Origin: Ignavibacteria bacterium
GTDB lineage: Bacteria; Bacteroidota; Ignavibacteria; Ignavibacteriales; Melioribacteraceae
Direction: 5' to 3'
Length of the DNA stretch: 64,000 bases
NCBI GenBank assembly: GCA_009773205.1
Contig: WPAE01000021.1
Location: 62,001 to 126,000 of the forward strand
Of the stretch, positions 8,495-52,008 are shown in pieces. Each line of letters opens with the position of its first letter. The stretch's first letter is position 1. The position numbers were made by a program, and so were the translations under genes. The notes below the pieces were generated by a model. The model saw only the letters and a program-made list of their open reading frames with translations. It did no database searches and was not told the DNA's origin.

Positions 8495-8510
8495 TGGCTA
8501 ATTTTAGCCA
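8495..8510. promoter_or_regulatory. palindrome upstream of flgB, possible activator site
   Basis: TGGCTAATTTTAGCCA has 7-bp perfect arms around a central TT. It lies about 85 bases before the start point predicted from the sigma-54-like promoter, a usual distance for an NtrC-type enhancer site. Close relatives occur at 51993-52008 (TGGCTAATATTAGCCT) and, as a half site, at 20845-20859. Confidence 0.55.
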
Positions 8511-8559
8511 AAACTTCATATACAAATTCCTCAAATAATCCGTTTTTAAGCTTTTTTGC

Positions 8560-8575
8560 TGGCATTGATTTGGCA
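8560..8575 (+). promoter_or_regulatory. sigma-54 promoter of the flgB operon
   Basis: TGGCATTGATTTGGCA has the essential GG at -24 (8561-8562) and GC at -12 (8573-8574) exactly ten bases apart. The predicted start, near 8586, leaves a 19-base leader with the ribosome site AAAAAGGT before the flgB ATG. RpoN-dependent early and middle flagellar genes are known from many bacteria. Confidence 0.75.
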
Positions 8576-8604
8576 ACAGTTTTCCCAAAAGCAAAAAGGT
8601 CAAA

Positions 8605-8997
8605 ATGGCGTCTTCAGTAAAATTATTAAGCAATCTCTTGGATTACTGCACAGAAAAGAACCGAGTGATTGCTAAAAACATTTCTAATCTCGCTACCGAA
8701 GGCTATCAAAGACAAGATGTTATATTCAAAGATGTTCTAAATGAAAGCTCAAGCTCACTTATGAAAGTTTCAAACAGCAAACACATCACATCAATGCAAG
8801 AGCAAACAGAGGGAACCAGCAAGTTCGAATATGTAAATGATAACAGCGAAGACATGGTTTCTGGCATTAACAATGTAAACATCGAAAGAGAAATGAGTGA
8901 ACTTGCGGAAAACACTTTGCGGTTTAAGTTTGCTTCAAAACGTGTTGGCGACTATTACCGTTCAATGCAAAATGTAATTAGAGGCGGAGGCAGATAA
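8605..8997 (+). CDS. flgB: flagellar basal-body rod protein FlgB
   Basis: A 130-residue protein of normal FlgB length. The N-terminal helix (LLSNLLDYCTEKNRVIAKNI followed by SNLATEGYQRQDV) carries the rod-protein consensus A-x-N-I-x-N-x-x-T-x-G-Y, with one substitution, and the C-terminal helix has NVNIEREMSELAENTLRF. FlgB forms the proximal rod just above the MS ring and is exported by the flagellar type III system without a cleaved signal. It is the first gene of the large flagellar operon and its stop overlaps the flgC start by one base. Confidence 0.95.
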   Translation: MASSVKLLSNLLDYCTEKNRVIAKNISNLATEGYQRQDVIFKDVLNESSSSLMKVSNSKHITSMQEQTEGTSKFEYVNDNSEDMVSGINNVNIEREMSELAENTLRFKFASKRVGDYYRSMQNVIRGGGR

Positions 8998-9500
8998 TGA
9001 AAATTGGCGGAAGCATTTTTGGCTTAAATTTTAGCGCACGCGGTATGGCTATCCAAAGAAAAAAAATGGATGTAATTGCGCAGAACATTGCCAACAGCGA
9101 TAACGTAAGAACCGAAAGCGGCGATCCATACAAAAGAAAAACTGTAAGAGTTGAACAGGAAAGAAAGAACTTTGCTAACGAATTAGAAATTGAAGGACAA
9201 AATATTAAACTGAATACAAGCAGTCCAAACCATATGGTTAAACTCAGTATGCCTCAATCTTTAAGAATTTCTGCAGACCAAGGCAAAGTTGAAATGACAG
9301 AGGTTACAGATGATAGACCAGGCGACATTGTTCATATGCCGGAACATCCTAATGCCAATAAAGACGGTTATGTGGAAATGTCTAATGTTAATGTTATTAA
9401 CGAAATGGTTGATATGATTGCCGCAACAAGAAGTTACGAAGCTAACCTTCAAGCATTAAACTCAGCCAAGCAAATGGCAAAAGATTCATTGGAGATGTAA
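8997..9500 (+). CDS. flgC: flagellar basal-body rod protein FlgC
   Basis: 167 residues, slightly longer than E. coli FlgC. It shows the rod signature MDVIAQNIANSDNVRTESGD near the N-terminus, where the last part is the FlgC-type loop, and GYVEMSNVNVINEMVDMIAA with TRSYEANLQALNSAKQM at the C-terminus, the helix pair that forms the inner rod core. Part of the proximal rod. Start overlaps flgB (TAATG). Confidence 0.96.
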   Translation: MKIGGSIFGLNFSARGMAIQRKKMDVIAQNIANSDNVRTESGDPYKRKTVRVEQERKNFANELEIEGQNIKLNTSSPNHMVKLSMPQSLRISADQGKVEMTEVTDDRPGDIVHMPEHPNANKDGYVEMSNVNVINEMVDMIAATRSYEANLQALNSAKQMAKDSLEM

Positions 9501-9503
9501 TAA

Positions 9504-9740
9504 ATGAAAGTAACTACAAACAATATTGGTAATTATTCACCTGCGTACTTTAAAGCTGAATTAGCTAAAACAGAAGCTGCTCAAAAAACAAAACCTGGAA
9601 ATATTTCTGCGGAAGAAAAAAAGTTCTTTGCGAATTTATATCCGGCACATAAAGAAGAAGTTCTTGGTTACCAGATTTACAATGCAAAGGGCAAAGTATC
9701 CGGCGTTCATGTAGGTTCACTTTTTGATAGAAGAGGTTAA
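9504..9740 (+). CDS. small conserved flagellar-operon protein of unknown function
   Basis: A 78-residue soluble, charged protein with no signal peptide or membrane segment. It has a short low-complexity start, then EEKKFFANLYPAHKEEVLGY and a tail GKVSGVHVGSLFDRRG. The strict gap of three bases after flgC and the position directly before fliE mean it is co-expressed with rod genes. I do not recognise a named family; the glycine-rich tail ending in DRRG may be a conserved interaction motif. It could be a rod chaperone or export cap, but that is inference from position only. Confidence 0.7.
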   Translation: MKVTTNNIGNYSPAYFKAELAKTEAAQKTKPGNISAEEKKFFANLYPAHKEEVLGYQIYNAKGKVSGVHVGSLFDRRG

Positions 9741-9741
9741 T

Positions 9742-10035
9742 ATGAAGATTGAAGGATTTGGAAGTATAATTCCGAAGTCTATAGAGCTAACTGAAAAGAA
9801 AGGTTCTTTTGGCGTAGAAGGATTTGGAGAAACACTTAATGGATTTATCAAAGATGTGAATCAATCTCAGTTAGATTCTCAAGGTACGGTTAAAGATTTT
9901 GTAAGCGGCAGCGGCGTTGAACTACATGAAGTTATGATTGCAAGTCAAAAAGCCAAAACCAATCTTGAACTATTGATGGAAATTAGAAACAAAGCAGTTG
10001 ATATGTTTAAAGAATTAACAAGGATGCCTGTATAA
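9742..10035 (+). CDS. fliE: flagellar hook-basal body complex protein FliE
   Basis: The chosen start, ATG 9742, has the ribosome site GAGG just upstream and gives 97 residues, the usual FliE size; an upstream TTG at 9724 would overlap the previous gene and lacks a site. The C-terminal two thirds match FliE: GFGETLNGFIKDVNQSQLDS, the acidic turn VELHEVMIASQKAKTNLELL and EIRNKAVDMFKELTRMPV. FliE links the MS ring to the rod and is the first rod protein exported. fliF follows after one base. Confidence 0.93.
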   Translation: MKIEGFGSIIPKSIELTEKKGSFGVEGFGETLNGFIKDVNQSQLDSQGTVKDFVSGSGVELHEVMIASQKAKTNLELLMEIRNKAVDMFKELTRMPV

Positions 10036-10036
10036 T

Positions 10037-11653
10037 ATGAATGCTAATCCATTACAAGCGTTTACCGGAATATTAGGCAAACTAAATCCTAAGCAAAAAG
10101 TTATGCTTGGCGTTGGAGTTATTGCCACGGTAGTTTTATTTGCTGTTCTAATGTTTATTCTTAACGAACCTACCTACTCAACGCTGTATTCCGGGCTTGC
10201 ACAAGAGGATGCAGGTAAAGTTGTAGAGCATTTGAACAATCAAAAAATTCTATACAAGATTGAAGATAACGGACAAACTATAAAAGTACAGCGAGAGAAA
10301 GTTGCAGAACTAAGATTAACACTTGCAGGAAAGGGGCTTATTAATTCAGGCGCAATAGGTTACGAAGTTTTTGATAAGTCAACTATGGGAATGTCTGAGT
10401 TTATGCAGAATTTTAATTTAAAACGTGCGCTCGAAGGCGAAATTGCGCGTACCATTCAACTGCAGGAAGGCGTATTAACTGCAAAAGTTTCTATTGTAAT
10501 GCCTAAGAGAACGGTATTTAGAGAAGAAGAAAAACAGCCAACTGCTGCTGTTACATTAAAGCTCAAAAGCAATTCAACTCCTACTAAAGAAAATATACAA
10601 GCAATAGTAAACTTGCTCTGCGGAAGTGTTGAAGGATTGCAGCCATCAAAAGTTTCTATAATTGATACAAAAGGTAGAATATTAAACAGCGATACAGAAG
10701 ATGGGCCTGTGGCTTTTGCATCTGCAAAACAATATGAAATAAAAAAATCTGTAGAGAACCATTTAATACATAAAGCGCAGTCTATTTTGGATAATGTACT
10801 TGGTTTTGGAAATGCTGTCGTTCAAGTAACTGCAGATTTGAATTTTGATCAAGTTGAAAAGACAATGACACAGTTTGACCCCGAATCTCAGGTTGTTATA
10901 AGCGAAGGAATTGCCAGAACAGAAAACAGCGGGCGCCAGCAAGCCGATACTTCTTCTGCTGCAAATGAAAATACGGTTACTAATTATGAAATTAACAAAA
11001 CTGTTCAAAATGTAGTTGAAGGAACGGGAAACATAAAAAGATTAAGTGTAGCGGCAGTTATAAATGATATTCAAAAAGAAGTAAAAGATGGAGACAAGAC
11101 TCAAATTGTAACAGAAACAAGATCTCCCGAACAAATAAGGAAATTAGAGGATCTAATTAAGAATGCTGTGGGAATTGACCCTGCAAGAAACGACCAGTTC
11201 ACAATTGTTAATATTCCGTTTGAACATAAGGTAGATGAAACCGTTACAGAGGCAGGTGTTTCTGCACTGCCAGACGCAAACGAATACATTAATTTGGTTT
11301 TCATTTTAGTTGCTATAGTTTCATCGCTTTTTGTACTAAAGAGTTTGATGAAACGCCTTAAAAACGAAAAGATAGTTATTGGAACTGTAAATACTGGCAA
11401 CTACGCTTATGCGGCAGAATCAGCCGGAGCATTAGCATCCGGCACCCGAGAAAGTAAAGGAAGCTCTTCAAACATGATTGCTGCTCAGAAAAAGAAAAAG
11501 ATGTTACTGCCAATGGGCGATATAGAAGACGAAATTTCTGAAGATGCTTTAGCAAAGAAAAATCAACAAGAAAGAATTGTTAATTACGTTACTAAAAATC
11601 CTATGGATGCCGCAAAACTAATAAACGCATGGATGCACGAAGATGAAGCATAA
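10037..11653 (+). CDS. fliF: flagellar MS-ring protein FliF
   Basis: 538 residues with the FliF layout: first membrane helix at about 21-42 (VMLGVGVIATVVLFAVLMFI), ring-building motifs including YSTLYSGLAQEDAGKVVEHL and FNLKRALEGEIARTIQ, a long periplasmic part, second membrane helix at about 418-437 (LVFILVAIVSSLFVLKSL), and a cytoplasmic tail ending IVNYVTKNPMDAAKLINAWM, the segment that binds FliG. It forms the membrane ring on which rod and export gate assemble. Overlaps fliG by 11 bases. Confidence 0.96.
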   Translation: MNANPLQAFTGILGKLNPKQKVMLGVGVIATVVLFAVLMFILNEPTYSTLYSGLAQEDAGKVVEHLNNQKILYKIEDNGQTIKVQREKVAELRLTLAGKGLINSGAIGYEVFDKSTMGMSEFMQNFNLKRALEGEIARTIQLQEGVLTAKVSIVMPKRTVFREEEKQPTAAVTLKLKSNSTPTKENIQAIVNLLCGSVEGLQPSKVSIIDTKGRILNSDTEDGPVAFASAKQYEIKKSVENHLIHKAQSILDNVLGFGNAVVQVTADLNFDQVEKTMTQFDPESQVVISEGIARTENSGRQQADTSSAANENTVTNYEINKTVQNVVEGTGNIKRLSVAAVINDIQKEVKDGDKTQIVTETRSPEQIRKLEDLIKNAVGIDPARNDQFTIVNIPFEHKVDETVTEAGVSALPDANEYINLVFILVAIVSSLFVLKSLMKRLKNEKIVIGTVNTGNYAYAAESAGALASGTRESKGSSSNMIAAQKKKKMLLPMGDIEDEISEDALAKKNQQERIVNYVTKNPMDAAKLINAWMHEDEA

Positions 11654-12680
11654 TAAACATGCCTTAGCCGAATCTAAAGAAGAAGTAACCGGATTGCAAA
11701 AAGCAGCTATGCTTATGGTTGCGCTTAATGTAGAAGCCGCTTCTTCTGTATTAAAACATTTAGACCCATCCGATGTAGAACTGATTACCGCAGAAATATC
11801 TAAAGTAAAAAACGTTTCTTCCAAAACTGTGGATACTGTGATATTTGATTTTTATAATATGGTTACAGCCCGCGAGTATGTTCTTGAAGGAGGATTAGAT
11901 TATGCACAAGCAGTTCTCGAAAAAACGTATGGACCAAGTAAAGCAAGTGAAATAATAGATAAAATAAAAAGATTAACAACACTTAAAGGGTTCGATGTAT
12001 TAAAGAAAGCCGAGCCTTCTCAGCTTGTTAACTTTTTGAATAAAGAACATCCTCAAACTATGGCTTTAATTCTTTCGCAGCTTGCACCAGATCAGACTGC
12101 AAATGCATTAAAAGAGCTGCCGGAAGAATTACGTGTTGATGTAGCTTTTAGAATTGCAACATTAGGCAAAATTGCTCCTCAAACGTTAAAACAAATTGAA
12201 CATGTAGTTGATGAAATTGCCGGCGCATCAATGAGTCAGTCTGTTGGAAAGCTTGGCGGCGCTAAATGTTTAGCGGCTATCTTGAACAGGGCAAATGTTG
12301 GAATGGCAAAAGATATTCTAACAAAATTAGAAGACATGGATGCTGAGACTTCTTACGAAGTTAAACGTTTGATGTTCATCTTCGATGAAATTGTTAATAT
12401 CAACGATAAAGACATTCAAAAAATACTTCGCGAAATTGATAGAAAAGACCTTGCGCTTTCTCTTAAAACAGCCGATGAAAAACTGCGCGATAAAATTTTC
12501 AAGAATATGTCCGAACGTGCTGCCGACCTGCTGAAGGAAGAATTGCAGTATATGGGAATGGTAAAGCTAAAAGAAGTTGAAACTTCACAAGCTAAGATTA
12601 TAGACGTAATTAAAGCACTTGAAGAACAAGGCGAAATTTCCTTGAACCTTAGAGGCGGTCCGGAAGAAGTGTATGTCTAA
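11643..12680 (+). CDS. fliG: flagellar motor switch protein FliG
   Basis: 345 residues, a full-length FliG. Seen are the N-terminal domain that binds FliF (LQKAAMLMVALNVEAASSVL), the middle domain motif EHPQTMALILSQLAPDQTA (the EHPQ patch that contacts FliM) and the C-terminal torque helix with FIFDEIVNINDKDIQKILRE and the charged run DRKDLALSLKTADEKLRDKI. It forms the C-ring face that meets the stators. Starts inside fliF and overlaps fliH by 8 bases. Confidence 0.97.
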   Translation: MKHNKHALAESKEEVTGLQKAAMLMVALNVEAASSVLKHLDPSDVELITAEISKVKNVSSKTVDTVIFDFYNMVTAREYVLEGGLDYAQAVLEKTYGPSKASEIIDKIKRLTTLKGFDVLKKAEPSQLVNFLNKEHPQTMALILSQLAPDQTANALKELPEELRVDVAFRIATLGKIAPQTLKQIEHVVDEIAGASMSQSVGKLGGAKCLAAILNRANVGMAKDILTKLEDMDAETSYEVKRLMFIFDEIVNINDKDIQKILREIDRKDLALSLKTADEKLRDKIFKNMSERAADLLKEELQYMGMVKLKEVETSQAKIIDVIKALEEQGEISLNLRGGPEEVYV

Positions 12681-13281
12681 TGTAATTAAGCTTACTTCAC
12701 GTTCTAACAGACCATCGTTAAAAGTGGCGGGAATTGGTGCGGTTAATACCAAAGAAGATGAACCCGATTTATTAAAGAAGCAGCTTGATGATTATTACAA
12801 AACAGGATTTCGAGAAGGACAAGAAAAAGCAAGACGTGACCTCGAACAAGATTACTCTAACAAACTTATCCGCAAATACCAAGAAGTATTTAACATACTT
12901 CAACAGTATGATGAGAATTTACTCGATTTAGAAAAATCTTTTGAAAGCCTTGTGATAGAAACAGCTTATGAGATTTCTAAGAAAATTGTTCAGAGAGAAA
13001 TTGAAGACAGAACAGTAATAAACGAGAATGTAAAAGCGGCAATAAACAAGATTATTGGCGCTAACGAAGTTCGGTTAAAGATGAACCCGGCAGATATTGA
13101 AGCGCTTTCAATTGACAGCAAAAATATGCTTAACAGCAGCTCGTTCAATAAAATTAAGATTGAAGGAGACGAAAGAATTGAAAAAGGCGGCTGCCTTATT
13201 GAAACTGAAATTGGAAATGTTGACGCAAGAATATCCACGCAGATTACAGAATTAAAAAGAAAATTAGAAGAAAGTATATAG
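12673..13281 (+). CDS. fliH: flagellar assembly protein FliH
   Basis: 202 residues. A GFREGQEKARRDLEQDY segment starts a long coiled coil typical of FliH, followed by an ATP-synthase-E-like domain (IETAYEISKKIVQREIEDRT, VRLKMNPADIEAL) and the tail GGCLIETEIGNVDARISTQI with LKRKLEES. FliH dimers hold the FliI ATPase and dock it to the C-ring. Low sequence identity is usual for the family; its place between fliG and fliI makes the call firm. Confidence 0.9.
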   Translation: MSNVIKLTSRSNRPSLKVAGIGAVNTKEDEPDLLKKQLDDYYKTGFREGQEKARRDLEQDYSNKLIRKYQEVFNILQQYDENLLDLEKSFESLVIETAYEISKKIVQREIEDRTVINENVKAAINKIIGANEVRLKMNPADIEALSIDSKNMLNSSSFNKIKIEGDERIEKGGCLIETEIGNVDARISTQITELKRKLEESI

Positions 13282-13285
13282 TGAA

Positions 13286-14617
13286 ATGTTTATTGTTGAA
13301 CAAATATTGGACAAATATCAAAAAACGATTGGGAAAACAGAAGCAATACGTGTTAACGGAAAAGTTTTAGATGTAATAGGGCTGGTAATTGTCTCTATTG
13401 GTCCAAACGCCGTATTAGGAGAAATATGCACTATAGTTGATCAAAACGGAACAGAAATTTGTAAAGCAGAAGTTGTTGGTTTCAAAAACGGAAAAGTACT
13501 TTCGATAGCAATTGGCGAGGTGCACAACATTTCTCCAGCTTGCGAAATTAAAGCATCCGGAAAAAATTTTAGTGTTGGAGTTGGGAAAGAATTGCTTGGC
13601 AGAGTAATAGACGGTCTCGGCAATCCAATTGATGGAAAAGGAGAAATAATTTATCATTCTTTTAGAGACGCACACAGAGAACCGCCAAATCCATTAGAAA
13701 GAAAAAGAATTGCTGCTCCTATTCAAACCGGAATTAGAGCAATTGATGGATTGCTTACAATTGGGAAAGGACAAAGGGTTGGAATCTTTGCCGGCAGCGG
13801 GGTTGGTAAAAGTGTTGCATTAGGCATGATTGCCCGAAACACAAGTGCGGACGTAAACGTAATTGCTTTAATAGGCGAGCGGGGAAGAGAAGTAAGAGAA
13901 TTTATCGAACGCGACCTTGGCGAAGAAGGACTCGCTAAATCTGTTGTTGTTTGCGCTACTTCGGATAAATCTCCTTTGATTAGAATGAAAGGCGCATACG
14001 TTGCAACAACCATTGCAGAATTCTTTCGCGAGCTAGGGATGGATGTAATGCTGATGATGGATTCTGTTACGCGCTTTGCAATGGCTCAAAGAGAAGTTGG
14101 TTTAACTGTTGGTGAACCGCCTACTACTAAAGGATATACACCAAGTGTCTTTGCACTGCTTCCTAAACTTTTAGAACGAGCCGGAACAACCGATAAAGGG
14201 TCAATTACAGGTTTATACACTGTGCTTGTTGATGGCGATGATATGACCGAACCTATTGCCGATGCGGTACGCTCAATTCTTGATGGACACATAGTTCTTT
14301 CTAGAAAGCTTGCTAACAAGGGACAGTACCCTGCAGTTGATACGCTGCAAAGCGTAAGTAGAGTTATGACCGATATTATTGACCGCGATCATTACCAGCG
14401 CGCTATGAGGTTTAACGAAATACTTGCAACTTACCGCGAAGCTGAAGATTTGATAAACATTGGCGCTTATGCAAAAGGCAGCAACCCTCAAATCGATCAT
14501 GCTCTTTCAAAAATTTCTCATTTAAGAAGTTTCTTGAAGCAGGATATTTTTGAAAAAGCAATGTACGATCAATCCGTTGAAAGGTTAAACCAAATTATTG
14601 AAGCGCCGATATTATAG
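13286..14617 (+). CDS. fliI: flagellum-specific ATPase FliI
   Basis: 443 residues, close to E. coli FliI. Walker A GIFAGSGVGKS is at about 165-175, Walker B VMLMMDSVTRFAMAQREVG at about 250-270, and GEPPTTKGYTPSVFALLPKL is the F1-beta-like loop that is diagnostic of type III ATPases. The hexamer helps unfold and deliver export substrates at the gate. Four bases after fliH. Confidence 0.97.
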   Translation: MFIVEQILDKYQKTIGKTEAIRVNGKVLDVIGLVIVSIGPNAVLGEICTIVDQNGTEICKAEVVGFKNGKVLSIAIGEVHNISPACEIKASGKNFSVGVGKELLGRVIDGLGNPIDGKGEIIYHSFRDAHREPPNPLERKRIAAPIQTGIRAIDGLLTIGKGQRVGIFAGSGVGKSVALGMIARNTSADVNVIALIGERGREVREFIERDLGEEGLAKSVVVCATSDKSPLIRMKGAYVATTIAEFFRELGMDVMLMMDSVTRFAMAQREVGLTVGEPPTTKGYTPSVFALLPKLLERAGTTDKGSITGLYTVLVDGDDMTEPIADAVRSILDGHIVLSRKLANKGQYPAVDTLQSVSRVMTDIIDRDHYQRAMRFNEILATYREAEDLINIGAYAKGSNPQIDHALSKISHLRSFLKQDIFEKAMYDQSVERLNQIIEAPIL

Positions 14618-14624
14618 GTGTAAT

Positions 14625-15062
14625 ATGGCAAAGTTTAAGTTCAAGTATGAATCTATTATGAAAGTTAAGCTGATGTACGAAAAGAAAATTCAAGAAGAAA
14701 TTTCGCGCATCAACAAAGATATAGATGATTTACTTTTTGAAGCGAAGCATTTGAGAAATGAGAGTAAGCGCGTTTCACTCCAAATGACAGAAAAATCAAT
14801 TAAAGCTGCCGATTTTCACAGCACGAAAATGTATTGCACGCATCTTCAACATCAAATAGACCTGCTTGAAAGAAAGATTGAGTCTTGCTTAAAAAGAAAA
14901 GAAGAAAAACAAAAAGAGTTAGTTGAAAGAAAAAAAGAAATTAAGTCTTTAGAAATAATCAAAGAAAATGATTATCAGAATTTTTTGATAGAAGAAAGAA
15001 GCTCGGAATTGAAATCATTAAATGAAGTAGCATTAAGAAATTTTAATGGGAGTAACTCGTGA
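14625..15062 (+). CDS. fliJ: flagellar export protein FliJ
   Basis: I use the ATG at 14625 (product MAKFKFKYESIMKVKLMYEK), seven bases after fliI; a longer frame inside fliI is unlikely. The 145 residues are almost wholly one charged antiparallel coiled coil, with the F-x-F/Y-x-L-x-x-V-like start and long E/K heptads that define FliJ. FliJ is the gamma-subunit-like stalk of the FliI ring and connects it to FlhA. Identification rests on the start motif and its place after fliI. Confidence 0.88.
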   Translation: MAKFKFKYESIMKVKLMYEKKIQEEISRINKDIDDLLFEAKHLRNESKRVSLQMTEKSIKAADFHSTKMYCTHLQHQIDLLERKIESCLKRKEEKQKELVERKKEIKSLEIIKENDYQNFLIEERSSELKSLNEVALRNFNGSNS

Positions 15063-15616
15063 AAAACGTATTTGTTTATGTAGTAATATTTTTGCTTACG
15101 TTCGCTTTGGTATCAGGGGCTATTTTTTATATGAACTCCAAATACAAAAATGTTTTCGCTTTAGATTTTACTCCGGATACAGGTGTGCAGCTTAAAAATA
15201 AAAATGAGGCTCCAAGCACAGATACACTTAGCACAGAGACTGCAACTCTTCCCGATACTGGCGCAGTTGCAGCTGATTTAACTATGAATGAAGCAAACGA
15301 GGTTAATACTGCTCTAACTGAGCCTAATATTAATAACACTACCACAATCGCAAAGCAACCTTTAACAGAAAACCCAATGCTGCCCAAGACTAATAATAAA
15401 GACTCGGCAAAGAAAGATTCTGTTTATCAGGCGTGGCTAAGAGATACTGTAAAACTGTACGAGGCAATGGATTCGAAAAAAGTTGCTAAAGTAATTCTTG
15501 CTTATCCCGATAATATAGCAAGGGACTTAATACTCAGGATGAGAAAGAAGAAAGCGGCGGAAGTTTTATCAGAATTCCAGCCGGAAGTTGTGACTAGACT
15601 AATAAGTGTGAACTGA
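15059..15616 (+). CDS. MotE-like / MgtE-N domain flagellar membrane protein
   Basis: 185 residues starting at a GTG that overlaps fliJ by four bases. A single N-terminal membrane helix (VFVYVVIFLLTFALVSGAIF) is followed by a Thr/Asn/Pro-rich periplasmic linker and a C-terminal helical domain, LYEAMDSKKVAKVILAYPDN through ILRMRKKKAAEVLSEFQPEV, that matches the MgtE N-terminal / MotE-like repeat. In Campylobacter and Helicobacter a protein of this type (MotE) is a chaperone of the stator partner MotC; in many Bacteria it lies next to fliK as here. Role in this organism is inferred. Confidence 0.75.
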   Translation: MKNVFVYVVIFLLTFALVSGAIFYMNSKYKNVFALDFTPDTGVQLKNKNEAPSTDTLSTETATLPDTGAVAADLTMNEANEVNTALTEPNINNTTTIAKQPLTENPMLPKTNNKDSAKKDSVYQAWLRDTVKLYEAMDSKKVAKVILAYPDNIARDLILRMRKKKAAEVLSEFQPEVVTRLISVN

Positions 15617-20752: not shown

Positions 20753-20779
20753 TTTTTTTGATCCTTCTTAGCAAACACT

Positions 20780-20806
20780 AAGGCTGTGGTTTAAGACCAC
20801 GGCCTT
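20780..20806 (+). terminator. Rho-independent terminator after flgE
   Basis: An 11-bp stem, AAGGCTGTGGT (20780-20790) with ACCACGGCCTT (20796-20806), has a five-base loop (TTAAG) and one G-U pair, and is followed by CCTCTTTTAT. It stands 27 bases after the flgE stop. Confidence 0.85.
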
Positions 20807-20826
20807 CCTCTTTTATAAAATCATAC

Positions 20827-20859
20827 TGCTAAAACCACGCAACTGTATAATATTAGCCA
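20827..20859. promoter_or_regulatory. half-sites of the flagellar palindrome upstream of fliL
   Basis: TGCTAAAACCA (20827-20837) and GTATAATATTAGCCA (20845-20859) reproduce, with weaker left arm, the arrangement GGCTAAAACCA plus GGCTAATATTAGCC found before the radical SAM gene at 51980-52007. The right arm is also that of the palindrome before flgB. Probably one binding site for a common regulator. Confidence 0.4.
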
Positions 20860-20909
20860 CTATTTTTTATCTTTTTAATTAAAATTCTCGGTATTCGTAT
20901 TACTTTGCA

Positions 20910-20925
20910 TGGCATAGCAATTGAG
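20910..20925 (+). promoter_or_regulatory. weak sigma-54-like promoter before fliL
   Basis: TGGCATAGCAATTGAG has the -24 TGGCA and TTG of the -12 element in the right phase, but GA instead of GC at -12. The predicted start near 20936 would leave only a 15-base leader that cuts into the ribosome site, so the assignment is doubtful. Confidence 0.3.
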
Positions 20926-20950
20926 AAAATGTTGAGGTAAATAATAATAT

Positions 20951-21487
20951 GTGTTAGAAATGGAAAAAGAAGAAAGCACTGGCACTGCGCCAGAAAAAGC
21001 TAAAGCTGGAATCAATATAAAAGTTTTACTTTTAGGGTTGCCTCTATTTATTATTCAGTTGGTTGCTGTTTATTTCATTACAGCAAATTTTCTTTTGAAC
21101 AAGATGCAGACCCAAACAGTTGATGCTCAAGAAGTAAAGAAAAATGACAAGTCTGTAGTAGCAAAAGAAAAGCCGGCAGAGTATGGCAAGTTCATCCACG
21201 AAATTCAAGATCAGATTATCAACCCTGCAGGAACAGACGGAAGAAGACTGCTAATGGTTTCACTCGGTTTTGATGTGCCAAGCGAAGAAAACAAAAAAGA
21301 ATTAGAAGCAAAAGATGTGCTTCTGAAAGATGAGGTTCTTTCTGTAATGAGCAGTAAAGGACTTGCAGAATTAGGCAGCATGGCGTACAGAGATACACTT
21401 CGCACAGAAATTACAGACCGCCTGAAAACAGTAATGCCCTCAGTAAAAATCAACAAAATTTATTTCAGCAAATATATCTTACAATAA
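20951..21487 (+). CDS. fliL: flagellar basal body-associated protein FliL
   Basis: 178 residues with one membrane helix at about 23-46 (IKVLLLGLPLFIIQLVAVYF) and a periplasmic FliL domain: DGRRLLMVSLGFDVPSEENK, LKDEVLSVMSSKGLAELGSM and LKTVMPSVKINKIYFSKYIL. FliL sits at the stator and supports torque under load. Start GTG 20951 (GAGG about eleven bases upstream) or ATG 20960. It opens the second flagellar block, ahead of the C-ring and export-gate genes. Confidence 0.88.
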   Translation: MLEMEKEESTGTAPEKAKAGINIKVLLLGLPLFIIQLVAVYFITANFLLNKMQTQTVDAQEVKKNDKSVVAKEKPAEYGKFIHEIQDQIINPAGTDGRRLLMVSLGFDVPSEENKKELEAKDVLLKDEVLSVMSSKGLAELGSMAYRDTLRTEITDRLKTVMPSVKINKIYFSKYILQ

Positions 21488-29240: not shown

Positions 29241-30076
29241 ATGGACAAGCATCACGGCTTATACAACTTAGACAGCTTGAAGAAAGAGGGAAAAAATTTT
29301 CAACTTCTAAGATCGTTTCTATCTGTTCCGGAAAAGGAGGAACGGGAAAGACATTCTTTGCCGCTAACTTTGCTTACCAGCTAACTCGAACTGGTAACAA
29401 AGTATTGTTGATTGATCTCGATCTCAATTTTTCTAACCTTAATATTCTGCTTAACCAGGCTGCTAAAGATGTAATCTCAGAATTTTTTGAACAGAGAAAA
29501 TCTCTCAGTGAAATAATTTATAATTATGATAAAAATCTCCACTTGGTTTTTGGCGATTCTGGCAGAGAAGACTACCCGCGTATTAGCAAAGAAGTCCTCG
29601 AATATCTTTTTATTTCGATCCTCAAAATTTCTAATAATTATGATTACATAATACTCGATTCCTCTGCCGGAGCAGATGAGCTTACTTTGTATCAACTTAT
29701 CCGTTCTGATTTTAATATAATTGTAACATCGCCAGAGCCAACAGCTGTTATGGATGCTTATGTAATATTTAAGCTCTTAAGCTCGGCTAATTTCTCCGGA
29801 GAAAAGCTTGTTGTAGTAAATAAGTGTACAGAAGAAGATGCACAAACTGCATTTACAAATCTCTTCGCCGCCGCCAAACATTTCTTAGGCGAAGAGCCAA
29901 AATTTCTTGGCGCAATTTCGTTTGATGAGGCTGTACACAAATCCATTGTTCGCCAAGAACTTCTAACAGAGGCTGTTCCCCAAAGCAGCCCTGCAAAAGA
30001 AATTACTGCTATTGTAAATAGCTTTGTTAGTTTCGCGCAAGTGGCTAATAATAACCACAACCGATTTATAATCTGA
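29237..30076 (+). CDS. flhG: flagellar number regulator FlhG (MinD/ParA-type ATPase)
   Basis: 279 residues. The N-terminal ASRLIQLRQLEER helix resembles the DQAxxLR segment that stimulates FlhF; it is followed by the deviant Walker A CSGKGGTGKTFFAANFAYQL (about 31-50), LLIDLDLNFSNLNILL and IILDSSAGADE (switch region) and a C-terminal helix. FlhG restrains flagellar number and can bind FleQ-type activators and FliM/FliN. Overlaps flhF; last gene of the second block. Confidence 0.93.
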   Translation: MNGQASRLIQLRQLEERGKKFSTSKIVSICSGKGGTGKTFFAANFAYQLTRTGNKVLLIDLDLNFSNLNILLNQAAKDVISEFFEQRKSLSEIIYNYDKNLHLVFGDSGREDYPRISKEVLEYLFISILKISNNYDYIILDSSAGADELTLYQLIRSDFNIIVTSPEPTAVMDAYVIFKLLSSANFSGEKLVVVNKCTEEDAQTAFTNLFAAAKHFLGEEPKFLGAISFDEAVHKSIVRQELLTEAVPQSSPAKEITAIVNSFVSFAQVANNNHNRFII

Positions 30077-30140: not shown

Positions 30141-30156
30141 TGGTATAAGGTTTGCA
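30141..30156 (+). promoter_or_regulatory. sigma-54 promoter of the fliA block
   Basis: TGGTATAAGGTTTGCA has GG and GC ten bases apart and the full TTTGCA -12 element. The predicted start near 30167 leaves a 17-base leader before the small membrane protein gene. The 107-bp gap that holds it lies between flhG and the fliA block, so it probably drives the sigma-28 gene and the following regulators. Confidence 0.7.
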
Positions 30157-30183: not shown

Positions 30184-30420
30184 ATGAATAAAATAGTATT
30201 GCGGTTTGGACTTTTAATCTTCTTCTTCTCGGTAATATTTTTTACACAACGCGGTCTTGCAATAGAAAAAGTACTTCTTAATTCTTTCGCAATTTTCATC
30301 TTAGTTACAACAATGCTGAGTTTAATTGTCATCGGTTTGATAAAAGCAATAAATAATAATTCGCTCAGCAAATTAGGCGACATATCAGATCAATTAGCAG
30401 GAAATAAAGATCATGAGTAA
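30184..30420 (+). CDS. small two-helix membrane protein
   Basis: 78 residues with two hydrophobic helices, about 5-25 (VLRFGLLIFFFSVIFFTQRG) and 33-58 (SFAIFILVTTMLSLIVIGLI), and a short polar tail. No family recognised. Its stop overlaps the fliA start by eight bases and a sigma-54-like promoter precedes it, so it is co-expressed with the sigma factor. A role in membrane sensing or as leader for fliA translation is possible but unsupported. Confidence 0.65.
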   Translation: MNKIVLRFGLLIFFFSVIFFTQRGLAIEKVLLNSFAIFILVTTMLSLIVIGLIKAINNNSLSKLGDISDQLAGNKDHE

Positions 30421-30967
30421 CGCAGCACTTTGGGCTTCGTATAAAGAGAAACCATCTCCCGAATTGAAAAAACAAATTGTGTTAAACTATGTGAACTTGG
30501 TTCACTATGTAATACACAGAACAAATTTGATTCAGAGCGCATTGTTAGACCGCCGCGATTATTTTCAGTTTGGAATTGAAGGTTTAAGCGAAGCAATTGA
30601 CCGTTTCGATCCAGACTATGGAACAAAGTTCGAGACCTATGCAATTCAACGCATTCGTGGTAAAATTTATGATGAGCTGCGCAAGTACAACGATAAGTTT
30701 GAACATGTTCTTGAGCCGGAAGCAACAACTATGTTTCCTACTTCTACTTTGTCTGTTAATCAATCTATTGGCGAAGATGATAGACTGCTGGATATGATTA
30801 AAGAACTTAACGAAAGAGAGAGAACAATTCTAAGTCTATACTACTACGAAGACCTTAACTATAAAGATATTGCTCAAGTGCTCAGCATTACTGTTTCAAG
30901 AGTATCACAAATTCATTCCAGAATTCTTAATTCCCTAAAATTAAAATTGGCAAAATATAATGCTTGA
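30413..30967 (+). CDS. fliA: flagellar sigma factor FliA (sigma-28), short form
   Basis: 184 residues, about 55 shorter than typical FliA. Region 2 is present (LVHYVIHRTNLIQSALLDRR, YFQFGIEGLSEAIDRFDPDY, GTKFETYAIQRIRGKIYDEL) and region 4 is present (LNERERTILSLYYYEDLNYK, DIAQVLSITVSRVSQIHSRI). The stretch between them is only about 45 residues and lacks the helical region 3 that normally follows the RIRGAxxDELR motif. It should still recognise -10 and -35 elements of late flagellar genes. No FlgM anti-sigma gene is visible in the window. Overlaps its neighbours on both sides. Confidence 0.88.
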   Translation: MSNAALWASYKEKPSPELKKQIVLNYVNLVHYVIHRTNLIQSALLDRRDYFQFGIEGLSEAIDRFDPDYGTKFETYAIQRIRGKIYDELRKYNDKFEHVLEPEATTMFPTSTLSVNQSIGEDDRLLDMIKELNERERTILSLYYYEDLNYKDIAQVLSITVSRVSQIHSRILNSLKLKLAKYNA

Positions 30968-42850: not shown

Positions 42851-42864
42851 GTAACGAGGATGCT

Positions 42865-43512: not shown

Positions 43513-43518
43513 GTTAAT

Positions 43519-43899: not shown

Positions 43900-43906
43900 A
43901 GCACTT

Positions 43907-44140: not shown

Positions 44141-44142
44141 GT

Positions 44143-44859: not shown

Positions 44860-44867
44860 GGAAAAAT

Positions 44868-45722: not shown

Positions 45723-46498
45723 TGGAAGGTTCAGATTCCCCCATTATTATAAAGAAAATTAAAAAAGGGCATGGCGGTCATCATGGCGGCGCATGGAAAG
45801 TTGCCTTTGCAGATTTTGTTACTGCTATGATGGCATTGTTTATTGTTCTCTGGATTTTAGGACAAGACCAAGAAGTTAAAGAAGCGGTTGCTGGTTATTT
45901 CAAAGATCCGGTTGGGTTTTCTGCAAAGAGTTCTAGTTTAATTGATGGTAAGGGTCCCGGTTCTTCCCAGCTTCCAAACTTAACTTTATCTCAAGAAGAA
46001 TTGGTTAGAGAGGCTCAGAAACAAGATTTTGAAAGAATGCAAGAAAGCCTGAAACGAGCTTTAGAAGAAGATACAGGATTGAATAATTTTTCTGATCTAG
46101 TAAAAATTGAAATGACTAAAGATGGATTAAATATTGAGCTTACAGATAATGCTAATGATATTTTCTTTGAACTTGGTACTTCGCAGTTGAAACCAGACGC
46201 AAGAAAATTAATAGGAAAGATTGGTGCAGAAATTTCTAAAATGCCAAACAAAATTGTTGTTGAAGGACATACAGACGCAAGACAATTTAAAAACATAGGC
46301 ACAGGTTTTACTAATTTTGAATTAAGCGCAGATCGTGCGCTTTCTGCAAAACGCGCTTTAGTATATGGCGGAATGATGGAAAAACAAATTGATGAAGTAG
46401 TTGGGTACGCAGATACAAGGTTAAGGGATAAAAATGATCCTTTCAGTTTTGTAAATAGAAGAATAAGCATAACCCTTAAGTTCAATGAAGCGAAATAG
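45722..46498 (+). CDS. motB: stator protein MotB, second set
   Basis: 258 residues. The N-terminal KKGHGGHHGGAWKVAFADFV followed by TAMMALFIVLWIL is the E. coli-type plug and membrane helix with the proton-binding Asp (AFADF). The OmpA domain has DNANDIFFELGTSQLKPDAR, IVVEGHTDARQF and FVNRRISITLKF. Pairs with the MotA just upstream; probably a proton-driven stator by similarity. Confidence 0.93.
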   Translation: MEGSDSPIIIKKIKKGHGGHHGGAWKVAFADFVTAMMALFIVLWILGQDQEVKEAVAGYFKDPVGFSAKSSSLIDGKGPGSSQLPNLTLSQEELVREAQKQDFERMQESLKRALEEDTGLNNFSDLVKIEMTKDGLNIELTDNANDIFFELGTSQLKPDARKLIGKIGAEISKMPNKIVVEGHTDARQFKNIGTGFTNFELSADRALSAKRALVYGGMMEKQIDEVVGYADTRLRDKNDPFSFVNRRISITLKFNEAK

Positions 46499-46504
46499 AT
46501 TATT

Positions 46505-46906
46505 ATGCGAGTATTAATTATTGAAGACGATACTTTTCTACAAGATTTTTACCGTTTATTTTTCAAAAAAATAAATAGTGAAGTTATTATTAGAGAAGAT
46601 GGAAACGATGTTATTAACGAAATCATTTCCGCCAGAATTGACCTTATAATTATGGATATTAATCTTAGAAATACATATTTACACGGTAAGAGAGTTGATG
46701 GTATTCAATTCTCGCGTTATATTAAAACTAACTACCCGAGCAGCGGAATTCCAATTTTGTTAATTACAGCTTATCCTATCATCACAATTGGCGAAAATAA
46801 ATTTGAAGAAAGTTTGGCAGACGATTATTTAATTAAACCAATAACAGATTATAATTTACTTGTTGATAAAATAAACAGACTGGTGTTTACCCGCTATGAA
46901 AGATAA
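46505..46906 (+). CDS. single-domain response regulator
   Basis: 133 residues, a receiver domain only: LIIEDDTFLQDFYRLFFKKI, phospho-acceptor Asp51 in LIIMDINLRN, a Thr switch (LLITAYP) and the conserved Lys (LIKPI). The region after the Asp has extra residues (TYLHGKRVDG). With no output domain it must act by protein contact, like CheY or Spo0F. Six bases after motB, and overlapping the next regulator by 11 bases, so the motor and this signalling group are one transcript. Confidence 0.83.
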   Translation: MRVLIIEDDTFLQDFYRLFFKKINSEVIIREDGNDVINEIISARIDLIIMDINLRNTYLHGKRVDGIQFSRYIKTNYPSSGIPILLITAYPIITIGENKFEESLADDYLIKPITDYNLLVDKINRLVFTRYER

Positions 46907-47549
46907 AGTACTAATTGTTGAAGACGAAAAAGACACAAGGTTCATTCTCGAAAAATTGTTAACGAGAAATAACTATGATGTTCTTACTGCTGTAAACGGG
47001 CAGGAAGCATTAGAAATTTTAAAAAATTTTGTGCCTAAGGTTATAGTTGCCGATTGGACTATGCCCGTGTTAGATGGATTGGCACTTTGCAATATCCTTA
47101 AAGGTGATGATAAATTTAAACTAACGTACTTTATTATTCTTACAGCACGTTCTTCTTTAAAAGATAGAATATTGGGATTAGATGTTGGAGCAGATGACTT
47201 TTTAGTTAAGCCTGTAGAAAATCAAGAATTGCTGGCAAGAATAAGATCCGGAATACGAATTTTTAATTTGCAAGCAGAGCTGCGTAATATAGAGCATTCT
47301 AAAGCTGTAATAGAAATGGCTTGCACAATCGGGCACAAAATTAATAATCCACTTAGCAGTTTAGTTCTATCAATAAAGAACATCGAAAACGAATTATCGG
47401 AACTCGAAAAGACTAAAATTGGAGAGGATTTGGTTAATGTCAATGCTTCCGTTACTAGAATCCGAACTTTTGTAAACGAACTCCTTCATCTTCAGAATGC
47501 AGAAATTGTAAACTATTTTGAAGACAGCAAAATGATAAAAACAGACTGA
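46896..47549 (+). CDS. response regulator with C-terminal phosphoacceptor-helix domain, no ATPase
   Basis: 217 residues. The receiver has VLIVEDEKDTRFILEKLLTR, Asp53 in VIVADWTMPVLDG, LTARS and the Lys of FLVKPVE. After a short coil, residues 135-205 form a two-helix DHp-type domain with the H-box ACTIGHKINNPLSSLVLSI; His147 is the phosphoacceptor position. No ATP-binding domain follows. This makes it a candidate phosphotransfer adaptor, able to take a phosphoryl group on either residue but not to make one. Alternatively the DHp part is only a dimer handle. Confidence 0.72.
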   Translation: MKDKVLIVEDEKDTRFILEKLLTRNNYDVLTAVNGQEALEILKNFVPKVIVADWTMPVLDGLALCNILKGDDKFKLTYFIILTARSSLKDRILGLDVGADDFLVKPVENQELLARIRSGIRIFNLQAELRNIEHSKAVIEMACTIGHKINNPLSSLVLSIKNIENELSELEKTKIGEDLVNVNASVTRIRTFVNELLHLQNAEIVNYFEDSKMIKTD

Positions 47550-47595
47550 TTTAAGTTTTTGTAAACCCTTTCGATAATAAGGCGGAGAATTAGGC

Positions 47596-48246
47596 ATGTT
47601 AGAAAGAATCCTAAATATTTCTGCCGGTTCGGATTACAAAAGCTCCACCTCTAAATCGGGCAGCTATCATAGAACATCGCAGTTCTTAACAACACTGCAA
47701 TCTTCTCTTAGCGATTCTATTTCACTTTCTCCAGCAACTGCTTTCTTAAGCAGTGTTCATTGGCGCTTAAAAAAAATTAACTTCGAAAAAGAAAAATATA
47801 TAATCACTTTTGAGTTTGATGGTTTTGAGTTTACCGCATACTTAGGGCAGCCAGATATTTTGATTACACACAGCATTGAGTACGAAGTAAAAAGAAAAGT
47901 AGAGCATTATACAAAACTATATGAAGCATCCTTGCAAATTATTAGTTCTGTTTCTGAACAGAAGGAAAAACCCGGTTCAAGAATAGCAATGCCAGAACTA
48001 TTTTTGTTTGTTATAGAATTACTCGATCTCGAAGATTTGACTTATAGCTTAAACTCAGAAAATGCTGAAGTAAAAAAAATATTTTATCAAAAAAGTAATA
48101 TGCTGCAAACAGAATTTAATTATTTGAATTCGTGCTTAGTAGCATTTTTAGAAAAATATCTTTCAATTAAATATAATTTTACAGCCAGTGCATTAAGTAA
48201 AAACGAAAGTCTGCTCTTGCGTAAAGTTCTGATAAACAAATTGTAA
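47596..48246 (+). CDS. protein of unknown function in the signalling block
   Basis: 216 residues, soluble, no signal or membrane helix. A Ser-rich start (LERILNISAGSDYKSSTSKS) precedes a small alpha/beta core (INFEKEKYIITFEFDGFEFT) and a helical C-terminal half. No family recognised. It begins 46 bases after the receiver-DHp gene and is followed two bases later by the histidine kinase, so it belongs to the same operon. Confidence 0.65.
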   Translation: MLERILNISAGSDYKSSTSKSGSYHRTSQFLTTLQSSLSDSISLSPATAFLSSVHWRLKKINFEKEKYIITFEFDGFEFTAYLGQPDILITHSIEYEVKRKVEHYTKLYEASLQIISSVSEQKEKPGSRIAMPELFLFVIELLDLEDLTYSLNSENAEVKKIFYQKSNMLQTEFNYLNSCLVAFLEKYLSIKYNFTASALSKNESLLLRKVLINKL

Positions 48247-48248
48247 CT

Positions 48249-50099
48249 ATGGTATATTCAAATAATCGAAAAATATTGCCGGCCGAAACAGAAGTTGATT
48301 TCCAGAGTTATACCGAACTGCCGAACCACAACCCACTCATTATTATTGATCTGGATCTCAAAATTGTTTACTGTAACGAATCCTTCAAAACTACTTTTAA
48401 CTTAGATACTGGTGATGACATTTCCGGAATGAATTCCAACCCCGAATTTGTTTACTTGGTAAAAGGATTTCACGAAAGCAGATATAAGAACATATCTATT
48501 GACATCACTCTTTCCAACGATTCCGACACTCAAGTAAATAATTACTTTGTTAGAATTGAACGTGTAATAATAAAACTGAATCAATATTTCGTTTTAGTGA
48601 TAGAATCGCTAGAGCAAAGAAACAGATTAGAGAATAAGATTACTTCGCTGCACAACGCCTTAGACCAGGGCAAACTTCCGTTAATGATTCTTGATGGAAA
48701 CCGCAAAGTATCTTATGTGTCTAAGTCGTTCGAAATAGTTCTATCAAAAGAAATTGAAAGCATATACAATAAAGATTTATTAGAAATTATCAGCGATCAT
48801 TTAAATTCTGTTGAATCTGAAGAACTAAAGCTGGCTGTGCTAAACAAGCGTGTTTGGAAAAAGCTGATTTGCCTTCAAAAGAAGTATCCAATTGAGTATT
48901 GGGAGTTTACTCTTAATCCGGTCTTCGAAATTGACAGACAAAGCCCTAACTACATTTTAATTGCTAGTAATTTAACAGAGCATATAAATCAAAAAAGAGT
49001 AATTGAAAGATCAGAGAAAAAACAAAGGCTGATTATAGATAACATTTCGGACTTGTTGTTGATAGTTGAGCGAGTTGGAGCCTCGGCATTGTTTGATAAT
49101 GCCAATGACAATTTTTGTAAAATCTTTGGTTTAGACAAAAATAAAATATACTCTTTCAAGATAGAAGATTTTATTCCAGAGCCGCTCTCGGATGAAATTT
49201 ACAATTCGATAACCGAGCTTAACAGCAAGAGAGTTCCTTATTTTGAATTCAACTACCGGCACTTTGATGAACGTGATTACAATTGTAAGATTACCTCTGT
49301 GCCCGAAAAAGAAAAGAGCGCAAGCTATTTTATAATTTCGATGAAGGATATTACTGAAGAAGTTTTATACAGCCAGCGTTTAAAGAAAGCATATCATAAA
49401 GAAATGCAGCTCAATAAAATGAAATCCGATTTTCTTGCAAACATATCGCACGAAATAAGAACTCCTTTTAATGCCGTTGTTGGCTTTTCCGAAATTATTG
49501 ATGAAAGTATTGAAACACAAGATTGGGATATGATGCGCGAGCTTATGGATTCGATGAAAGAAGTTTTGGGCAGAGCGCTTAACTTATTCACAAATATTAT
49601 AGAAGTCTCTCAAATTGAATCTGGTGAAGTTGAGTTGGAAAAGGTTGATTTAAGCTGCAACCGTGTTGTACGAAATATTTACGAGAAGCTTGGTGCAGAG
49701 GCACAAAAAAATAATATCGAGTTCATACTTAATCTTACAGAGGAAAACTGTACAATAGAGGTTGATTGGGTTAAATATGAAAAAATTGTACACTCGCTTG
49801 TTGAGAATGCTATAAAATATACAAGCGAAGGTTACGTTTATGTTGGCACTCAAGTTTATAATGGTATAGCTGAGTTAACTGTTTCTGATACCGGAGTGGG
49901 AATGGACTCTTCTCAGATCGAAAGGCTTCTCAAACCTTTTACTCAAGAGATAGAAGGATACACAAGACCGTTTGAAGGCGCCGGCTTAGGATTAACAATT
50001 GCTTACAAGCTAACGCTGCTTATGGGCGGAAAGTTTGATATAGTTAGCGAAAAAAATAAAGGAACAAAAATAACCGTTTCGTTTCCTCTTTCAGTATAA
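48249..50099 (+). CDS. PAS domain sensor histidine kinase
   Basis: 616 residues, no membrane helices, so a cytoplasmic sensor. Three PAS-like domains in the first 380 residues (HNPLIIIDLDLKIVYCNESF, KLPLMILDGNRKVSYVSKSF and DLLLIVERVGASALFDNAND), then the DHp helix with His401 in FLANISHEIRTPFNAVVGFS, and a complete ATPase domain: N-box LVENAIKYTSEG, G1 VSDTGVGMD, F-box and G2 FEGAGLGLTIAYK. Nothing is missing. Likely partners are the nearby receiver proteins at 44143, 46505 and 46896. Confidence 0.9.
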   Translation: MVYSNNRKILPAETEVDFQSYTELPNHNPLIIIDLDLKIVYCNESFKTTFNLDTGDDISGMNSNPEFVYLVKGFHESRYKNISIDITLSNDSDTQVNNYFVRIERVIIKLNQYFVLVIESLEQRNRLENKITSLHNALDQGKLPLMILDGNRKVSYVSKSFEIVLSKEIESIYNKDLLEIISDHLNSVESEELKLAVLNKRVWKKLICLQKKYPIEYWEFTLNPVFEIDRQSPNYILIASNLTEHINQKRVIERSEKKQRLIIDNISDLLLIVERVGASALFDNANDNFCKIFGLDKNKIYSFKIEDFIPEPLSDEIYNSITELNSKRVPYFEFNYRHFDERDYNCKITSVPEKEKSASYFIISMKDITEEVLYSQRLKKAYHKEMQLNKMKSDFLANISHEIRTPFNAVVGFSEIIDESIETQDWDMMRELMDSMKEVLGRALNLFTNIIEVSQIESGEVELEKVDLSCNRVVRNIYEKLGAEAQKNNIEFILNLTEENCTIEVDWVKYEKIVHSLVENAIKYTSEGYVYVGTQVYNGIAELTVSDTGVGMDSSQIERLLKPFTQEIEGYTRPFEGAGLGLTIAYKLTLLMGGKFDIVSEKNKGTKITVSFPLSV

Positions 50100-50107
50100 A
50101 TAATTTA

Positions 50108-51943
50108 ATGTCAGTAGCGGCAGAAAAATATGGCAAGTCCGTAATCGGCAGTGAAATGCAGATTACCAGCTTTAATAAACTTGGGAGAGATCAGTTTCAA
50201 ATAATGCTGCGCGGCGAAAGCGACCAGATTACTCTAATTAAGGAAAGCATTAGATTTTTTTCACTTGATCTGCCAGCCGAGATTAAAGAAATATTTATTT
50301 CTTACAACGAAGCGCCACTATTCTGGATTTTCGAATCCTCGTTATTAAACCAAATCGAAGAATTTATGAAGTTTAATTTCAAAGGCGGCGCCTATGCAGA
50401 GCTTCATAAACAAACAAAAGAGAACTACTCTCGCTGGGCAACCACAAAACTAAAAAGTGAAAAAGAATACTATTCTACTACAACAATAAATTTTATTGAA
50501 AGAGATGTGAATAAGCATAACTTCTTCAAGATGATTTTGAAAGGAATAATATTTACTTATCAAAGTACCTATTACAACCCATCAAAAGCGCTTGAACTAT
50601 TTGCCAACACATTTGAACTTGTAAACACTCTTAGATTAAACGAACAAACTAAATCTGAAATAAAATATATACTAAAACTTTATACTGGTTTTGTTTATCT
50701 AAAAGAAAGTGATAACGAAAACGCAAGCTCTGCCTTCAAAGACGCTTTGGAAGTAAAACCTCAAGGATGTACAGCTAAAATTTATGCCGCTCTAACAGAA
50801 GTAAATATGGGCAGCGTTGACTTAGCTGCTTATTATCTTAAAGAAGTTTTATCTTATGATATTCAAAGACTTAGCATTGCACTTAAAACAAATAACGTGG
50901 GAATGTTTAATTACTTTTTTAAGAATGCGTTTATCTATAATGTTTTTTATTACAAAGATTTCGCAAAAGCTGTTGATTCAATTCAGATCATTCTCAATGA
51001 GTACCGTCCTTTGGAAGCAAACCTTCTAGAAAAATGTAGGGAAGATTTGGAGAAGATTAAAAAAAGAAAGTTGGATGAATACTACGATGACGAGATAATT
51101 AAAACACTGGCTTTTGCAGATAAAATTTTTCAGCTTTATGCAAAATCTAAAAGTACACTATTGTTAGCTGCATATCCTGAGTTTAAGAGAAAACTAAATT
51201 CTATTGTTGATAGTATTGTTTTTAAAATAAAAGATAAGTTTTATAAAGAAGTTAAAGAAAGTCTAAACTCATTCGATTTGGTAATTAAGGACAACTTAAG
51301 CGCCGAAAAGCATTTGATGGAAGAGCTTGAAAATTTCAAAACAAAATCTAAAGAAATACTTAGTAATACAATTAATACTGTTCAAAATAGTTTTGATTCT
51401 GATGCAAAAGCAATAGAGGCAAGAATTGAAAATCTGCCGAATATAGATAAATACAATCCACGTATTTCTTTAGCTAACAATATGACTTATAATACAATAA
51501 TAGCTTTGGTAGTTTTCGTTATTGGGGGAATGAGCAGTTATTCAAACAGATTTGTTGATAATACTTCTGAATTCAATTCTCTCTTTGCTCAGGTTCTTGT
51601 TTCAGGGTCTAAATGGGGAGCAATTAGTTTTCTTTTAGGAGTGATTATTTCACTTGTAATAACAGGCGTAATTCTGCTTGAACGCTTCGATATAAAATCG
51701 AATCTTCAGAAAAGACTAAATCTTCTTAGATTAGAAAAAGAAAGTGCAATTGCAGAACTAAAAGAAGCCAGCCGGCATAAAGAAAAAATTATGATTGAAA
51801 GCATGACAAGCAGCATTCAGGCGCATAAAAAGAGAGTTGAGGAAACCAATGAGATTAGAGCCGTTGCAGAAAAGGAACGAATGAATGCCGCCAATCTTAA
51901 AATAGAAGAATTAACTGCAGATTTAGTGAAGATACTCGCGTAA
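50108..51943 (+). CDS. large membrane-anchored protein with TPR-like middle, unknown function
   Basis: 611 residues. Residues 1-120 have no recognised fold; about 140-310 are helical with a TPR-like stretch (IKYILKLYTGFVYLKESDNE, FKDALEVKPQGCTAKIYAAL). A long coiled coil (about 340-450) leads to two membrane helices, about 460-477 (MTYNTIIALVVFVIGGM) and 500-525 (GAISFLLGVIISLVITGVIL), then a second coil of charged residues to the end. It closes the signalling operon, eight bases after the kinase. It might be a scaffold or a bacterial dynein-like motor accessory; that is speculation. Confidence 0.6.
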   Translation: MSVAAEKYGKSVIGSEMQITSFNKLGRDQFQIMLRGESDQITLIKESIRFFSLDLPAEIKEIFISYNEAPLFWIFESSLLNQIEEFMKFNFKGGAYAELHKQTKENYSRWATTKLKSEKEYYSTTTINFIERDVNKHNFFKMILKGIIFTYQSTYYNPSKALELFANTFELVNTLRLNEQTKSEIKYILKLYTGFVYLKESDNENASSAFKDALEVKPQGCTAKIYAALTEVNMGSVDLAAYYLKEVLSYDIQRLSIALKTNNVGMFNYFFKNAFIYNVFYYKDFAKAVDSIQIILNEYRPLEANLLEKCREDLEKIKKRKLDEYYDDEIIKTLAFADKIFQLYAKSKSTLLLAAYPEFKRKLNSIVDSIVFKIKDKFYKEVKESLNSFDLVIKDNLSAEKHLMEELENFKTKSKEILSNTINTVQNSFDSDAKAIEARIENLPNIDKYNPRISLANNMTYNTIIALVVFVIGGMSSYSNRFVDNTSEFNSLFAQVLVSGSKWGAISFLLGVIISLVITGVILLERFDIKSNLQKRLNLLRLEKESAIAELKEASRHKEKIMIESMTSSIQAHKKRVEETNEIRAVAEKERMNAANLKIEELTADLVKILA

Positions 51944-51979
51944 TCCATCAAGTTTTTCACCACAAGTAAACAGCTTATC

Positions 51980-52008
51980 GGCTAAAACCAACTGGCTAAT
52001 ATTAGCCT
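51980..52008. promoter_or_regulatory. palindrome and half-site upstream of the glycosylation locus
   Basis: GGCTAATATTAGCC (51994-52007) is a perfect 14-bp palindrome, and GGCTAAAACCA (51980-51990) lies beside it. The same palindrome type stands before flgB (8495-8510) and, weaker, before fliL (20827-20859). It is in the only sizeable gap between the signalling genes and the radical SAM gene. Confidence 0.55.

Follow-up and report, generated by a model that had tools for sequence, protein, structure and literature searches.

A conserved palindrome before flagellar operons of Ignavibacteria very probably binds an NtrC-type activator

The flagellar genes of this Ignavibacteria genome are closely packed, and a palindrome recurs in the gaps between them, which raises the question of what binds there and what it controls. 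A sequence-only reading of the window (the whole 64,000-nucleotide stretch analysed here) had described two full copies and a half-site version in three gaps, and had suggested that the motif binds a sigma-54 activator of the FlgR/FlrC class. When matched as a pattern, TGGCTAATNTTAGCCA occurs exactly at 8495-8510, with one mismatch at 51993-52008, where a T as the last base makes the second supposedly full copy not quite a palindrome, and with two mismatches at 20844-20859. These three places do lie in main gaps of the packed genes (8398-8604, 20753-20950 and 51944-52052), as had been claimed; a fourth, at 30042-30057 and again with two mismatches, had escaped notice through its overlap with the 3' end of flhG. 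A neighbouring GGCTAAAACCA half-site, reported at 20827 and 51980, fared less well: even the closest relative has not conserved it.

Taken by itself, the window shows a modest excess of TGGCTAATNTTAGCCA, with eight matches at up to three mismatches vs a shuffle mean of 2.97, and 5 of 100 window shuffles attain eight. Pattern searches of the whole 4.14 Mb genome found places with zero or one mismatch only at 8495 and 51993. For the refined form TGNNNANTATTAGCCA the genome has five exact matches, all in flagellar or chemotaxis loci (contig C315, which is flagellar, or the chemotaxis portion of C214), a count that is not an independent test since the form was partly built from those same five places. 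One of the five, C214:84628 at the start of a kinase gene, lacks conservation and was set aside as probably a coding coincidence or chance; a place at C214:77076, before cheW, recurs clearly in one other genome only (G004), and the cheW side has no clear sigma-54 promoter. For the remaining places chance is removed by conservation in about 50 other genomes, so that the earlier judgement that chance was unlikely stands despite the modest window excess, and the palindrome is confirmed as real and conserved.

Loci for comparison were collected with FliG and came mostly from Melioribacteraceae and Ignavibacteriaceae. Footprinting across 44 flgB and 29 fliL upstream regions placed CAAnTGnnnAATATTAGCCA 49-52 nt upstream of TGGYAY-N5-TTG; this spacing was kept in 41 of 42 assigned cases before flgB (P1) and in 29 of 29 before fliL (P2), counts that are not independent because the compared genomes are related. 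The few exceptions among the 44 flgB regions, which lacked a clear site, include L086 and L101. In the window, where all features given here are on the + strand, the putative P1 activator site is TGGCTAATTTTAGCCA (8495-8510), an exact match found at the same position in about 40 relatives, followed by the sigma-54-type promoter TGGCATTGATTTGGCA (8560-8575; GG-N10-GC), whose TGGYAY is conserved in relatives. The gene behind it (8605-8997) has no Pfam match of its own and was called flgB, the first gene of the rod, basal-body and hook operon, from its position, synteny and homology to relatives, with flgC, fliF and fliG downstream. Just before flgB, positions 2430-8397 encode a DUF1800 protein along with three others that carry C-terminal sorting domains of type IX secretion. 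The putative P2 site, CAACTGTATAATATTAGCCA (20840-20859), is present in all 29 loci examined and precedes the sigma-54-type promoter TGGCATAGCAATTGAG (20910-20925; GG-N10-GA) and fliL (20951-21487; PF03748; likely start ATG at 20960), which opens the next flagellar operon.

The overlooked fourth place belongs to a putative site, CAAGTGGCTAATAATAACCA (30038-30057), within the 3' end of flhG (P3). It is followed by a sigma-54 promoter with a canonical GG-N10-GC, TGGTATAAGGTTTGCA (30141-30156), by a small membrane-protein-like ORF of 78 amino acids whose start is aligned in relatives (30184-30420), and by a short fliA-like sigma-28 gene (30413-30967), assigned to the FliA/WhiG family by profile models. 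Each of 20 genomes has this site ahead of the small ORF and fliA. In all 20 the second codon of the site is GTG, CTG, ATG or TTG, the residue varying between V, L and M, and its first AAT codon is invariant; because the xTG persists while the residue changes, the comparison indicates that this site is held at the DNA level beyond the needs of the flhG protein. Spacings at P3 fall into classes of 50, 59, 69-72 and 80-83 nt, roughly whole helical turns apart, and a phasing test on these four classes alone gave p of about 0.1, so that helical phasing is suggestive only. Which arm of the palindrome is complete differs among the sites: at P1 and P2 the promoter-proximal arm (TTAGCCA) is complete, at P3 and P5 the distal arm (TGGCTAA), and the CA at -3/-2 remains on the distal side.

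Two sites deviate in spacing in the source genome. Before the glycosylation locus (P4), the putative site CAACTGGCTAATATTAGCCT (51989-52008), which in relatives follows the g50108 orthologue, stands 67 nt from the candidate promoter TGGTATAGATATTGTG (52076-52091; GG-N10-GT), the least certain of the promoters; among eight genomes examined for this site six have a candidate promoter, relatives show spacings of 57-59 nt, and the nearest relative has a canonical TGGTATGATAGTTGCA. As annotated, the radical SAM gene (ORF 52053-53249) takes in this candidate promoter within its 5' end; since the GTG start of the ORF precedes the promoter, the true start is probably further downstream. Further into the region, 55566-60257 encodes a 1563-aa protein with a radical SAM domain and several glycosyltransferase domains. 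The site before HEAT-cheR (P5) was present in 12 of 13 genomes, mostly at 49-51 nt, whereas in the source genome (C214:87187-87515; L024:7187-7515) site and promoter are separated by about 300 nt instead of the usual 50 or so, apparently through an insertion containing repeated segments.

GG-N10-G was present in 106 of 106 assigned promoters, a figure that is partly circular because the search itself required the G, while the base that follows was left free. At -12, GC was seen in only 22 of the 106 and GA, GG or GT in 84, and the P3 promoter was canonical GG-N10-GC in 12 of 20 genomes. A single RpoN is encoded in the genome (C214:27575-28048; PF04552, E 1.3e-57). From the GG-N10-G, from a P3 promoter that is canonical in most genomes and from the link to an activator described below, we infer that these are sigma-54 promoters with a loose -12 element.

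The candidate activator (C214:85359-86750) combines a response regulator receiver, a Sigma54_activat (AAA+) domain in which GAFTGA is present, and a Fis-type HTH (HTH_8); it lies upstream of HEAT-cheR-cheZ and adjoins a kinase with HisKA and HATPase domains (C214:84627-85337). The kinase is beside the activator in relatives too, where the pair often adjoins HEAT-cheR and shares a contig with flgB, which it precedes by about 7-10 kb. An orthologue of the activator was found in 24 of the 25 genomes first searched and, in families f1-f3, in 21/21 flagellated vs 1/11 non-flagellated genomes (Fisher p 1.7e-7). One genome (G219, L287), from the same family but with neither FliG nor FlhA detected, still encodes it, at 65% identity. 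The HTH is 65-96% identical among orthologues, but only 25-37% identical in paralogues even though their AAA+ domains are 48-50% identical. The protein scores below the curated cut-offs of NF049963 (Campylobacter FlgR; 334 bits of 750) and NF050807 (Caulobacter FlbD; 336 of 750), and is therefore called FlgR-like from its make-up and context, not as a member of either model. Together, the near-fixed spacing seen in dozens of species, the near-exclusivity to flagellar and chemotaxis loci, the one RpoN and the co-occurring activator with its nearly invariant HTH support the initial suggestion of a sigma-54 activator site; it is very probably at this palindrome that the NtrC-type flagellar activator of the class docks.

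Site and promoter were also searched for as one strict joint element, which gave 38 matches in 24 relative genomes (about 1.5 per genome), of which nearly all precede flgB or fliL, while a reversed control pattern gave six; in G010 a third flagellar match falls at P3. The source genome has two matches when a wide gap is allowed, one of them at fliL. In families f1-f3 the joint element was present in 19/21 flagellated vs 1/11 non-flagellated genomes, and across the class (197 genomes surveyed) a background of scattered matches appears outside these families. In the flagellated family f18 it stands before fliL and before a CheY-like operon. Family f13 keeps the activator in 6 of 6 genomes, although FliG and FlhA were undetected in all six at the thresholds used; there the joint element lies before an operon for a surface lipoprotein and a TPR protein in three genera (L242, L244 and L245; G035, G045 and G055) and before a DUF4402 gene at L243. 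It is about an even call whether f13 has kept and rewired a flagellar activator without a flagellum and the class at the same time uses sigma-54 promoters in which the C at -12 is dispensable.

The reading we favour, at a probability of about 0.82, is that the palindrome is the enhancer of the FlgR-like activator, which would open RpoN promoters of flagellar operons, with FliA governing a second tier. The FlgS-like kinase would phosphorylate the adjoining activator, dimers of which would bind TGGCTAATATTAGCCA or the asymmetric CAAnTGnnnAATATTAGCCA as an upstream activating sequence. An AAA+ ring would then assemble about 50 bp upstream of the -24/-12 promoter, or one to three helical turns further, and open the promoter held by RpoN-polymerase. 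The predicted targets are the flgB operon, the fliL operon, the small ORF with fliA, the flagellar glycosylation locus and the HEAT-cheR-cheZ operon; FliA would in turn serve late genes (flagellin and the cheW operon) via CCGATAAT promoters. The FliA-like factor itself is only 184 aa long, with the FliA/WhiG models matching two separate stretches, and apparently lacks region 3. Enrichment had been expected before flagellin, fliD and chemotaxis genes and near sigma-54 promoters, and absence before flagellin had been set against the proposal. The site was indeed found before HEAT-cheR and near sigma-54-type promoters, and none was found in the upstream region of flagellin (C315:126662), but that region carries a CCGATAATA element with an upstream AAAGTTAAA, and this sigma-28-type CCGATAAT promoter marks flagellin as a late gene. 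A sigma-28-like CGATAA precedes the cheW operon in five of six genomes checked, and is common before HEAT operons too.

About 50 proteins of the genome match the activator query, and the FlgR-like assignment was built on co-occurrence and context, so that the site, though a true flagellar operator paired with a promoter of sigma-54 type, might have another binder, either a different NtrC-class protein or a factor outside that class. We consider this improbable: no candidate but the FlgR-like activator has a single clear orthologue in each genome that tracks flagella (although the paralogues were not compared singly), it sits in the flagellar and chemotaxis cluster of relatives with its HTH kept, and f13 retains both activator and element where FliG and FlhA are undetected. 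Somewhat less probable still is a promoter of another sigma factor, of a housekeeping -7 TAnnTTTG type or read by a dedicated sigma, with the palindrome as an ordinary activator site. The 84 promoters with GA, GG or GT at -12 would fit such a promoter, but -24 GG and -13 G keep their N10 spacing (in part because they were searched for), P3 is canonical in 12 of 20 genomes, and both RpoN and an activator with GAFTGA are present.

That the palindrome arose by chance, or is an RNA hairpin or terminator between operons, is scarcely credible. The shuffles show that chance alone could yield the count seen in the window, but the presence of the joint element follows that of flagella; with one arm degenerate (TGnnnAAT), most relatives could form no stem, and yet position and spacing are fixed. 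A hairpin or terminator was rejected, as the alignments show the opposite of stem-only conservation with compensatory changes.

How, then, does an enhancer read by a FlgR-like activator compare with known systems? The NtrC enhancer is a TGCAC dyad; the Ignavibacteria site likewise is a dyad suited to the dimer of a Fis-type HTH and lies upstream of -24/-12, but has a different half-site, and its targets are not nitrogen genes. The sequence-only reading had found the motif unlike FleQ and NtrC sites, and FleQ-type, NtrC-type and FlbD-type sites indeed do not match it. FlbD of Caulobacter recognises the dyad CCCGGCA-N5-TGCCGGG and DVU1063 of Desulfovibrio GGCA-N4-TGCC (PMC3333781), some DVU1063 sites lying 40-70 bp downstream of promoters (PMC4641369); these too are flagellar sigma-54 activators with a GGC-containing dyad (PMC3333781), whereas the Ignavibacteria site reads GGCTA-N4-TAGCC, has an additional CA on its upstream side and stands about 50 nt ahead of the promoter. 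The FlrA/FleQ-type regulator DVU2894 likewise uses a dyad in flagellar activation, yGTCA-N6-TGACr (PMC4641369), but this repeat is unrelated in sequence, and the Ignavibacteria activator carries a receiver domain and belongs to the two-component response regulators. Closest are the flagellar two-component checkpoints FlgSR-sigma-54 of Campylobacter, FlrBC of Vibrio and FleSR of Pseudomonas, which likewise pair a kinase with an NtrC-class regulator for sigma-54 rod and hook operons and leave late genes to FliA (PMC7064773). In contrast to these, the Ignavibacteria element has a direct site from footprinting by sequence comparison and a degenerate -12, and its predicted targets include the fliL operon and fliA. 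No literature joining Ignavibacteria, flagellar genes and sigma-54 was found in the collection searched. Judged from sequence, this is probably a flagellar enhancer read by a FlgR-like activator, with a lineage-specific site and geometry, and the FlgSR, FlrBC and FleSR checkpoints operate along the same lines.

For a class of the Bacteroidetes/Chlorobi group, a flagellar hierarchy can thus be proposed from sequence alone, made up of a candidate activator with its site and operons, and of a second tier under sigma-28. The regulator and its probable targets can be read directly from the genomes of mostly uncultured Ignavibacteria, and the near-fixed spacing, the loose -12 and the reuse in f13 make sigma-54 activation geometry and regulator rewiring directly testable.
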